Below the pieces are notes generated by a model. That model saw only the letters and a program-made list of their open reading frames with translations, searched no databases and had not been told where the DNA came from. From contig JACNJX010000106.1 in the NCBI GenBank assembly GCA_014382345.1, positions 1 to 64,000 on the forward strand: 64,000 nucleotides of DNA, in the 5' to 3' direction. The DNA comes from Alphaproteobacteria bacterium (GTDB lineage Bacteria; Pseudomonadota; Alphaproteobacteria; Rhodospirillales; Casp-alpha2). The position numbers were made by a program, and so were the translations under genes. Below are positions 47,263-51,498 of this stretch, in pieces. Positions within the stretch are counted from its first letter, which is position 1, and the number at the start of each line of letters is the position of its first letter.

Positions 47263-49689
47263 TTACCCGCACTTGGAATAGCCGCACGACCGGCAGTTGT
47301 CGCAGCCTTCTTCGCGCACAAGGCTGGCCTGGCCGCATTTCGGGCACTGGCGGAACGGCAGGGCGTTCATGGCGCCGCCGTCTCCGGAGCCGGAGCCATC
47401 ACCCGATACGGACCCCGTCGAATCCGACCCGCTACCCCCCGAGACGCTGCCCGAAACACCACTCATCACCGCGACGTTAAGCTTCTTGGCTTCATCCACT
47501 TCCGCCAATTCGCCGGGACTCGAAAGAAACCCCGTCGCGATCATGTGCTGTTCGATGACGCCGCCGATAGCCGCCAGCAGGGACGGCACGTAGCGTCCGC
47601 CCATCCATTGTCCGCCGCGCGGGTCGAACACGGCTTTCAACTCCTCGACCACGAACGACACGTCGCCGCCGCGCCGGAACACGGCCGAGATCATCCGCGT
47701 CAGCGCCACCGTCCAGGCGTAGTGTTCGGTGTTCTTGGAATTAATGAAAATCTCAAACGGCCGGGTGCGTCCCTGGTCGTCGATAATGTCGTTCATCGTG
47801 ATGTAGATGGCATGGTCGCTTTCCGGCCAGCGCACCTTGTAGGTCTGGCCTTCCAGGTTTTCCGGCCGGTCCAGCGGCTGAAACAGGCGCGTCACCGGGC
47901 CTGCGTCGCCCAAATCCTTCGGCGTTTCCGTGACCACCGGGTTTTCCAGCGGCAGTTCCGGCTCGTCCGTGTTGGCGTCCTTTTTGACCTCGAGCACGGC
48001 GCCGGTAATGTCGTTCGGCCGGTACGTGGTGCAGCCCTTGCAGCCCAGTTCGAACGCCTGGGCGTAGATGTCCTTGAAGGCGTCGAAGGTGATGGCTTCG
48101 GGGCAGTTGATAGTCTTCGAGATGGAGCTGTCGATGTACTTCTGCACCGCCGCCTGCATCACCAGATGGTCGTTGGGCGACAGATGCTGGGCATTGACGA
48201 AGGCGTCGGTCAGCGTCGCATCGTCGCCGAACATGCGCCGGTACAAACGATAGGCAAAATCGGTGACGTTTTCCTCGCGCCGGGCCCCGTCGGGCATCAA
48301 AACGTGGCGGGCGTATTTGAAGCTGAACACCGGCTCCAGGCCCGACGACACGTTGTCAGCCAACAGCGAAATCGTCCCCGTCGGCGCGATCGAAGTTAAA
48401 AGGGCGTTGCGAATGCCATGTTCGGCGATGGCGTCGCGAACGTCGGCGTCCAGCCCGGCGACGGTTTCGCCGGCCAGGAATTGCTCCGCATCGAACAGCG
48501 GGAAAGACCCCTTTTCCCGCGCCAACTCGACGGACGCCAGATAGGCCGCGCGCTGCAAGGTGCGCATCCAGTTTTCCGTCAACTGCACGGCGCGGCTGCC
48601 GCCGTAGCGCGCGCCGGTCATGATCAGCGCGTCGGCCAGCCCGGTCACGCCGAGCCCGATTCGCCGCTTGGCCTCGGCCTCGTTTTTTTGCTCGGGAAGG
48701 GGAAAATTGGAAACTTCGATGGTGTTGTCCATCATCCGGACCGCGACGGCGACCAAGTCTTCCAACGCGTCGGTGTCGAGGCTGGCGGTTTCAGTGAACG
48801 GATCGACCACCAGCTTGGCCAGATTGACCGAACCCAACAGGCACGCGCCGTAAGGCGGCAGCGGCTGTTCGCCGCACGGGTTCGTGGCGTGGATGGTTTC
48901 GCAGTAATGCAGGTTGTTGCGCGCGTTGATACGGTCGACGAAAATCACGCCGGGCTCCGCATAGGCATAGGTCGCGCGCATGATGCCATCCCAGAGATCC
49001 CGGGCAGGCAGGCTTTTGTAGGTCACGCCGTCGAATTTCAGTTCCCACGCCGCGTCTTCCTGGACCGCCTGCATGAACGCATCGGTGACCAGCACCGACA
49101 GGTTGAACATGCGAAGCCGCCCAGGTTCGCGCTTGGCCTCGATAAAGGCCTCGATATCCGGATGGTCGCAGCGGAGCACCCCCATCATGGCGCCCCGGCG
49201 CGAGCCGGCGCTCATGATGGTGCGGCACATGGCGTCCCACACGTCCATGAAGCTCAACGGCCCCGACGCATCGGCGCCGACCTTGTGTACGGGCGCGCCC
49301 TTGGGCCGGAGCGAGGAAAAATCGTAGCCGATGCCGCCGCCCTGCTGCATGGTCAGGGCCGCTTCCTTCAGGTGCTGGAAAATGCCGCTCATGTCGTCGG
49401 GGATGTCGCCCATGACGAAACAGTTGAACAGCGTCACCCGGCGGTCCGCCCCGGCGCCAGCGAGAATGCGGCCCGCCGGCATGAACTTGAAATCGTCCAT
49501 GGCCTCGAAATAGCGCTGTTCCCATTTCACACCCTGTTCGGCATCGCGCTCGCGGTCCGGCGCGCTTAAGGCATGTGCGACGCGGCTCCAGGTGTCGGAC
49601 ATGGTCTTGTCCACGGGCTGGCCGTCGGCGCCCTTGAGGCGGTATTTCATGTCCCAGATCTGCTGCGAGATATTGGCGGGCTTAGACAT
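47263..49689 (-). CDS. nrdJ: Adenosylcobalamin-dependent (class II) ribonucleotide reductase
   Basis: An 808-residue enzyme making deoxyribonucleotides without oxygen or a radical-generating subunit. Key parts are VTLFNCFVMGDIPDD, QQGGGIGYDFSSLRP, NPCGEQPLPPYGACLLGSVN and the radical-site region SIAPTGTISLLADN. After a long Gly/Ser/Asp-rich linker (about residues 710-750) it ends in a zinc-ribbon-like tail with CPKCGQ and CDNCRSCGYSKCG, which carries the redox cysteines. The upstream leader is unusually long (about 420 nt if the SOS promoter at 50106-50146 is used). I saw no B12 riboswitch or NrdR box. Confidence 0.96.
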   Translation of the reverse strand: MSKPANISQQIWDMKYRLKGADGQPVDKTMSDTWSRVAHALSAPDRERDAEQGVKWEQRYFEAMDDFKFMPAGRILAGAGADRRVTLFNCFVMGDIPDDMSGIFQHLKEAALTMQQGGGIGYDFSSLRPKGAPVHKVGADASGPLSFMDVWDAMCRTIMSAGSRRGAMMGVLRCDHPDIEAFIEAKREPGRLRMFNLSVLVTDAFMQAVQEDAAWELKFDGVTYKSLPARDLWDGIMRATYAYAEPGVIFVDRINARNNLHYCETIHATNPCGEQPLPPYGACLLGSVNLAKLVVDPFTETASLDTDALEDLVAVAVRMMDNTIEVSNFPLPEQKNEAEAKRRIGLGVTGLADALIMTGARYGGSRAVQLTENWMRTLQRAAYLASVELAREKGSFPLFDAEQFLAGETVAGLDADVRDAIAEHGIRNALLTSIAPTGTISLLADNVSSGLEPVFSFKYARHVLMPDGARREENVTDFAYRLYRRMFGDDATLTDAFVNAQHLSPNDHLVMQAAVQKYIDSSISKTINCPEAITFDAFKDIYAQAFELGCKGCTTYRPNDITGAVLEVKKDANTDEPELPLENPVVTETPKDLGDAGPVTRLFQPLDRPENLEGQTYKVRWPESDHAIYITMNDIIDDQGRTRPFEIFINSKNTEHYAWTVALTRMISAVFRRGGDVSFVVEELKAVFDPRGGQWMGGRYVPSLLAAIGGVIEQHMIATGFLSSPGELAEVDEAKKLNVAVMSGVSGSVSGGSGSDSTGSVSGDGSGSGDGGAMNALPFRQCPKCGQASLVREEGCDNCRSCGYSKCG

Positions 49690-49711
49690 CGATAAATTCC
49701 GAAATTCCTGG

Positions 49712-49736
49712 AGGTTTCACGGGAAAACTGAAACCT
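49712..49736 (-). other. Perfect hairpin in the nrdJ leader just before the start
   Basis: AGGTTTCA (49712-49719) and TGAAACCT (49729-49736) pair perfectly around 9 nt. It ends 22 nt upstream of the nrdJ ATG, so the folded RNA could influence ribosome access. Confidence 0.5.
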
Positions 49737-49848
49737 GATTTTGCGCTTGGCCGGGCCGTGGGTAAAGAGAAAGTTCCCGTTATGTTTCCACCGACTTGTC
49801 CAGAATAGTCGGCTTTACGGAACGGGATAAAGCAGGGGCAAAAGCACC

Positions 49849-49890
49849 TTATCCCCATTATTCACAGCAAAAACCTTGGTTTTATCCCCA
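49849..49890. repeat. Two TTATCCCCA direct repeats (DnaA-box-like)
   Basis: TTATCCCCATTATT at 49849 and TTATCCCCATAATT at 49882 are 33 bp apart, about three helical turns. Each differs by one base from the DnaA box TTATCCACA; a further GGGATAA (reverse TTATCCC) lies at 49834. DnaA control of ribonucleotide reductase genes is known in E. coli, so replication-linked control is plausible. Confidence 0.4.
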
Positions 49891-50105
49891 TAATTAACCA
49901 TAAAAAACGAATGTTTCCGCGTAATGGAAAATTCCGTAGGAAATGTCAGGATTCGTCAGCTTATGTCTACATTTGTACGCATTTCAGGCTCAAAACGGGC
50001 CAAAACGCCTTTTCCGGCCCTGATTTCCCCAAAAAATCCCTTAAAATTCCAGAAACGGCTGTCTTTAACCCGCCTCCAGAGGCTCACAGGAGCAATCAAA
50101 TCTCG

Positions 50106-50146
50106 GAACAAACTAAGAACATACGCTTGTCTGGCGGAAATGTCAA
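50106..50146 (-). promoter_or_regulatory. SOS (LexA)-type promoter reading towards nrdJ
   Basis: On the minus strand TTGACA (50146-50141), a 17-nt spacer and TATGTT (50123-50118) form a near-consensus promoter. Overlapping its -10 region and start is GTTC-TTAGTTT-GTTC (50120-50106), an exact match to the alphaproteobacterial LexA box GTTC-N7-GTTC. The transcript would start near 50111 and run leftwards to nrdJ. Confidence 0.72.
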
Positions 50147-50280: not shown

Positions 50281-51141
50281 TTACCCGGCGGCACGCCATT
50301 TTTTCTTGAGGGGGCCCAAGTCGAAGAGCGAGAATTTTTCTTTGCTGACTATTTTCATGATCGATTTTTCGGTTTCTTCCAGAATGGTTTTGTTGCCATC
50401 CTCAATGGCGGCGATAAGTGTGGCGCTTGCTTCTTCGGCCACCTGACGCACCATTGCGACGGCTTCGTCCGCCGCCGTCCGAAGCTCGGCGGTAGCTTTT
50501 TCCGCTGCAAGATTCACCCTTTCCGCAGCCTGGGCCAAAACCTTGATGACGTGAGAGGCCGCTTCCCGGGCTTGGTTGGGGGATTGATCCTTCTGGATAC
50601 CGGTTGTTGACCCCGGGAATCTGGTAAGGACGTCTTGCCTTGCCTTAGCGACGCTATCGGTTGCTTTTTTGCCCGCGTCGGTCAGATCCAGAATTGCCTC
50701 TTCGGCAACCCGCCTTACATGAGCCGCTGCGGTTTCAGCCCGATCGGCAACCTTGCTAATGGCGATTTCCGCACATTGATTTAACTTGGCGGAGGCATTT
50801 TCCGCCTCCTTCAATATCTTGTTGGCAGCCATTGCCGCTTTTTTCGCATTCTCTCCCGGCGGGATGTGGCTAATAAGATCGGCGGCGGCCGTTGCCGCAT
50901 CGCTGTTGATCTCGGAGACGGCGATAGCCGTCTTCGCCATTAACTTCGTACTTTCCACCTCAGCCTCGGAATAGACACGGGCTGCCATTCGCTCGACGTC
51001 CCCGGCAATTTTCCCAGCCACCGCCTGAACGTCTTGGGCGAGCCTTTCCATGGCCTCCAATGAGCCCGAGGCCTGGTCGCGCTCGATGATTTCATGCAGT
51101 TCTTTCAAGGGCCTGACGTGTTTAAGATATTCGCTCGTCAT
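50281..51141 (-). CDS. Hypothetical Ala-rich, all-helical protein
   Basis: A 286-residue protein of unknown function, predicted almost entirely helical. Repeated Ala/Glu/Lys-rich segments such as AEIAISKVADRAETAAAHVRRV, VNLAAEKATAELRTAADEAV and MVRQVAEEASATLIAAI suggest 11- or 22-residue amphipathic repeats like those of apolipoprotein-type, LEA-like or phasin-like proteins. No membrane helix or signal. The ATG has only a weak ribosome site and is directly preceded by a palindrome (51143-51160). The surrounding DNA is more AT-rich than the rest of the window, which hints at acquired sequence. Confidence 0.75.
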   Translation of the reverse strand: MTSEYLKHVRPLKELHEIIERDQASGSLEAMERLAQDVQAVAGKIAGDVERMAARVYSEAEVESTKLMAKTAIAVSEINSDAATAAADLISHIPPGENAKKAAMAANKILKEAENASAKLNQCAEIAISKVADRAETAAAHVRRVAEEAILDLTDAGKKATDSVAKARQDVLTRFPGSTTGIQKDQSPNQAREAASHVIKVLAQAAERVNLAAEKATAELRTAADEAVAMVRQVAEEASATLIAAIEDGNKTILEETEKSIMKIVSKEKFSLFDLGPLKKKWRAAG

Positions 51142-51160: not shown

Positions 51161-51498
51161 GTGCTTGTGTCGTAAAAAATGTCATTGGCCTATTCAGGAT
51201 CAACACGTTTTCTTTGGTCAGCCCGTTTAATGGCTGAACAGTTGTAGTGGTGCAATGATGAAGGCAAAGAAATAGCCGCAACTTCAATTGACCCACTTGG
51301 TAGCTCCTATAGCCATTGCGATATTCGCTTTAGGCCGGAACTTTGCTTCCCCCTGTTTCCAAGGGTTCGCCCTTTCATGAGCCAACGATGCGGCCCTTAA
51401 AGATTAGCATTACGATATATTTTTTGGTTGCGGAGTCAATCAATTCCACAAATTTTTTGTGAGTAACTCATGGTTTTGTTTTGATATTTGCTTCTGGC

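Follow-up and report, generated by a model that had tools for sequence, protein, structure and literature searches.

The window analysed here is a stretch of 64,000 nucleotides from the genome of an uncultured marine alphaproteobacterium. It contains nrdJ, the product of which was assigned to the class II ribonucleotide reductases by its match to TIGR02504 (585.7 bits, above the cut-off of 399.95). Upstream of nrdJ lie a proximal promoter candidate, a long predicted leader and a distal promoter, named promoter A, which is overlapped by a predicted LexA operator (box A). The features of the locus are:

47263-49689, minus strand: nrdJ, adenosylcobalamin-dependent ribonucleotide reductase, 808 amino acids (PF02867, PF00317, PF12637)
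49690-50111, minus strand: predicted untranslated leader between promoter A and nrdJ; the position of the -10 hexamer suggests a start near 50111
49738-49766, minus strand: proximal nrdJ promoter candidate TTTACC-N17-CAAAAT, from sequence comparison
49773-49787, plus strand: LexA-like operator B, GTTCCCGTTATGTTT, directly upstream of the proximal -35, from an order-wide comparison
49858-49866, minus strand: DnaA-box-like site TGTGAATAA; such sites occur in seven of eight genus leaders
49917-49936, minus strand: downstream module of a dispersed element, CGGAATTTTCCATTACGCGG, the family being defined by comparison within the genus
49943-49982, minus strand: degenerate copy of the dispersed array element, made up of four 10-bp direct repeats (.TG...AC..; 0 of 200 shuffles)
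50106-50120, minus strand: predicted LexA operator A, GTTCTTAGTTTGTTC, overlapping the -10; exact in seven of eight genus members, one mismatch in the eighth
50118-50123, minus strand: -10 hexamer of promoter A, TATGTT, after a 17-nt spacer; genus forms TANGTT or TATATT
50141-50146, minus strand: -35 hexamer of promoter A, TTGACA, unchanged across the eight genus members

As described in the initial annotation, a near-consensus promoter TTGACA-N17-TATGTT with an exact GTTC-N7-GTTC box over its -10 was confirmed at 50106-50146 on the minus strand, facing nrdJ. It matches the consensus at 10 of 12 positions, and the distance to the nrdJ start (49689) is about 420 nt. Four exact GTTC-N7-GTTC boxes were observed in the window versus 2.2 expected, and at least four were obtained in 13 of 100 shuffles. 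The 1.6 kb around promoter A contained one promoter-like site versus 1.0 expected. Each taken alone in the window, the box and promoter A are within chance, and therefore the case for promoter A rests on comparison.

A nrdJ-like sequence was present in all 61 genomes that were searched. The genus of the window, of which MarineAlpha3_Bin2 (L131) is a named member, was represented by the eight genomes with a readable 5′ end of nrdJ plus upstream sequence. In all eight, promoter A and its box were found in the same orientation 341-435 nt upstream of nrdJ; in the eighth member one half-site of the box reads ATTC instead of GTTC. The conservation of the box upstream of nrdJ in relatives, which the initial annotation had proposed as a check, was thus verified within the genus. 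When the sequences were aligned on the box, mean pairwise identity was 0.57-0.85 in the stretches of the -35, the -10 and the box, versus 0.2-0.4 in the spacer and the flanks. The genes further upstream vary between most of the eight genomes, and promoter A stays with nrdJ. The significance of box A comes from this footprint in eight of eight genomes, which are not independent draws because the genomes are related. The frequencies in the window would also fit an ordinary constitutive promoter that the box overlaps by chance. However, the box was kept in every genus member despite diverged flanks and changed upstream genes, and a coincidence of this kind is regarded as extremely improbable. Outside the genus, promoter A was not found in the nrdJ upstream regions of the relatives compared, and the best reading of the sequences is that the distal, presumably LexA-blocked promoter is a genus-level addition.

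The identity of box A was addressed by comparison with the SOS boxes of the same genome. LexA is encoded in this genome, with the DNA-binding domain PF01726 and the S24 peptidase domain PF00717 (G000:C46), and boxes of the GTTC-N7-GTTC kind lie close upstream of its lexA, recA, ssb, comM, radA and umuD genes. Similar boxes were also present close upstream of a nuclease-like gene and a phage terminase gene. Upstream of radA the layout TTGACG-N17-TATGTTC matches the arrangement of promoter A. The exact pattern occurs 83 times in the whole genome, and a control pattern 73 times. All 83 matches were scored with a matrix built solely from the lexA operators of relatives, with the nrdJ sites excluded, and box A ranked 13th, slightly ahead of the recA box. 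The first place of lexA carries no independent weight, because some of the relatives' operators are identical in sequence to the genome's own. Box A thus resembles the lexA and recA operators of the genome and its relatives, in agreement with its earlier description as an alphaproteobacterial LexA site. Two further boxes of the LexA type, both AT-rich, were noticed in two mutually similar stretches, L018 (G000:C36, GTTCTACATTTGTTC) and L087 (G000:C113, GTTCTATGTTTGTTC); their flanks are alike, and no gene is obvious downstream of them.

The leader between promoter A and nrdJ was analysed for alternative products. The initial annotation had seen no convincing gene in these 420 nt, and indeed no open reading frame is common to the eight genus leaders. 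It had also considered that, instead of nrdJ, the promoter might serve a leader-encoded small RNA or peptide that is induced by damage. The leader is long enough to invite this idea, and in the window a frame of 51 codons, with TTG as its start, begins shortly past the box. However, that frame is not shared by the genus, the leader sequence is unconserved, with an identity at background level beside the promoter, and its length varies from about 340 to 430 nt in the eight members. Furthermore, no same-strand terminator-like site was found between promoter A and nrdJ in the window, and a search of the leader and six related loci for Rfam families was negative except for an unrelated riboswitch farther upstream. 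A separate small RNA or peptide is thus considered very unlikely. The lack of a terminator, an RNA family and a shared frame, together with the conserved pairing with nrdJ, makes it most likely that promoter A belongs to nrdJ. The riboswitch is a c-di-GMP-I aptamer (RF01051, 49 bits) at 51296-51381 on the minus strand, upstream of an uncharacterised, alanine-rich open reading frame of 286 amino acids (50281-51141).

The leader also contains other elements, and these, together with its length, were counted against the main reading. DnaA boxes are present by sequence, as predicted sites, close to the nrdJ promoter, and in 102 nrdJ upstream regions DnaA-box-like sites numbered 51, versus 1.6 in shuffles. 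A repeat block lies between promoter A and the DnaA-box-like sites in six of the eight genus members. In the dispersed genus element to which it belongs (loci L262-L311), four 10-bp units (TGNNNACNNN) stand in tandem, and a module close to GGAATTTTCCATAATNCCGG comes after them. The NNN of the units tends to be constant inside a genome and to differ between genomes. The element occurs at up to about 17 places in the genus genome G003, and the module pattern had matches in nine of ten genomes, with almost none for the control. NrdR boxes were not detected in the window with up to three mismatches to the consensus tried; a nrdR gene is present in the genome.

The comparison of upstream regions revealed a second candidate operator at nrdJ, operator B, which is new and was absent from the initial annotation. 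It belongs to the proximal promoter, which reads TTGACC-N17-CAAAAT or CAAGAT in several genus relatives. In most relatives site B has the form GTTC-N7-GTT(T/C); it is oppositely oriented and precedes the proximal -35 by 4-8 nt. A site of this type with a score of at least 6 was found in 77 of 89 distinct upstream regions, versus a mean of 3.1 in shuffles, and in 2 of the 13 remaining regions, mainly a Rhodobacterales set; this split into 89 and 13 regions was chosen after inspection of the site table and is descriptive. In 74 of the 77 regions the orientation was the same, and the three matches in the other orientation could represent the genus's box A. The site ends with GTTT in 54 of the 74 cases and has a conserved flanking CCA(C).

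Several observations connect site B with LexA. SOS genes of Caulobacter use the box GTTCttgttatGTTC (PMC12700426), and a common form of site B is one base from it. The exact GTTC-N7-GTTC is found at site B in several taxa, e.g., Skermanella aerolata and an Elstera MAG. Because the search itself selected the half-sites, the spacer was tested alone: its correlation with the spacer of the order's recA operators, likewise chosen by a one-mismatch rule, was 0.875, a value reached in 5 of 5000 column permutations. Like B, the operators of recA and lexA in this order often deviate from the exact box in one half-site (GTAC, ATTC, GTTT). As a side observation, two LexA-type sites were often seen at the recA promoters of the order (L231-L260). 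They face the same way with a distance of about 69 bp between them, and in each of them one half-site is commonly imperfect (GTAC or ATTC). Taken together, the sequence comparisons indicate that site B is probably a LexA operator. The idea that site B defines a separate regulon in this genome was rejected, as the sole exact match in the genome lies at nrdJ and the mismatch counts equal the control.

Given the CCA(C) flank and the fixed position of B, another factor might bind there, or LexA might act as an activator. If so, the order-wide site would be bound by a non-LexA factor or by an activating LexA, and an SOS link of the repression type would run via promoter A only. The conserved terminal T and the CCAC flank fit this possibility, and a fixed orientation 4-8 nt upstream of a -35 is unusual for a plain repressor site. 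In addition, the LexA of Rhodobacter sphaeroides is reported both to repress and to optimise recA transcription. However, the spacer preference agrees with the recA operators, exact boxes occur at B in several taxa, and imperfect half-sites are also found in the recA and lexA operators of the order, and this explanation is therefore judged rather unlikely.

The genome encodes a second class II reductase of 1235 amino acids (NF005736). SOS control of this long NrdJ was considered and rejected, as its contig lacks an exact box and the region upstream of its start has no good site. No match to the class I small subunit (PF00268) was found in ten genus genomes, several of which are incomplete. With no comparable box at the long NrdJ and no class I small subunit detected, the shorter NrdJ looks damage-linked, and the longer one looks like the standing supply. 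In the genus member G003 the NrdJ (L226:182-3703, minus strand, P0002) has an in-frame, intein-like insert of about 370 amino acids at the NPC/GEQP motif, and a similar split with a long frame was seen in genus member G014.

The proposal of the initial annotation that a LexA-controlled promoter serves nrdJ gained comparative support from the eight genus members, the likeness to SOS boxes and the order-wide operator B. It is considered highly likely that 50106-50146 is a LexA-repressed, sigma70-type promoter of nrdJ that adds to the proximal promoter, and the best reading of these comparisons is that nrdJ, the shorter of the two class II reductases, belongs to the SOS regulon. From the architecture we infer LexA binding, damage induction, read-through and a benefit, as follows. 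In the undamaged cell, LexA on the GTTC-N7-GTTC over the -10 would block RNA polymerase at promoter A. Upon DNA damage, RecA-stimulated LexA cleavage would free the promoter, and transcription would cross the leader into nrdJ. The output of nrdJ would then raise the deoxynucleotide supply for repair synthesis. Promoter A would thereby add to a proximal promoter carrying the putatively older and weaker LexA-like operator B.

The arrangement resembles the alphaproteobacterial LexA regulon, e.g., of Caulobacter, in having the same operator over a core promoter (PMC12700426, PMC3323433). It differs in that the main text of the 2025 paper on the Caulobacter SOS regulon names no nrd gene (PMC12700426). 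In E. coli, nrdAB is controlled by DnaA, Fis and NrdR (PMC4009431, PMC8203912). Like nrdAB with its DnaA control (PMC8203912), the present locus is a reductase promoter with DnaA-box-like sites; unlike nrdAB, nrdJ encodes a class II and not a class Ia enzyme, carries LexA-like operators and has no NrdR box by the consensus tried. In the archaeon Halobacterium sp. NRC-1, nrdJ comes up in UV-response studies (PMC1224876, PMC2556686). The searchable literature yielded no report of an SOS-controlled nrdJ in alphaproteobacteria, or of an SOS-controlled ribonucleotide reductase; it may have been predicted in silico before. To our knowledge, the response of the class I reductase genes to DNA damage in E. 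coli has not been ascribed to LexA.

LexA sites at nrdJ would link DNA damage to the supply of DNA building blocks. It is tempting to speculate, as a tentative and somewhat doubtful extension, that in Rhodospirillales-like alphaproteobacteria the shorter class II reductase could be a dedicated SOS enzyme, tuned by a LexA operator upstream of the -35 that possibly both activates and represses, with the genus of the window adding a second, LexA-blocked promoter and the damage-related dNTP supply becoming B12-dependent. Site B is also present in cultured relatives such as Skermanella aerolata, Zavarzinia aquatilis, Dongia deserti and Paramagnetospirillum caucaseum. If true, a LexA-controlled, B12-dependent reductase across an order would couple the capacity for DNA repair to the supply of cobalamin. 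B12 is scarce in the ocean, and it is in the ocean, the habitat of this alphaproteobacterium, that such a cobalamin link would matter.
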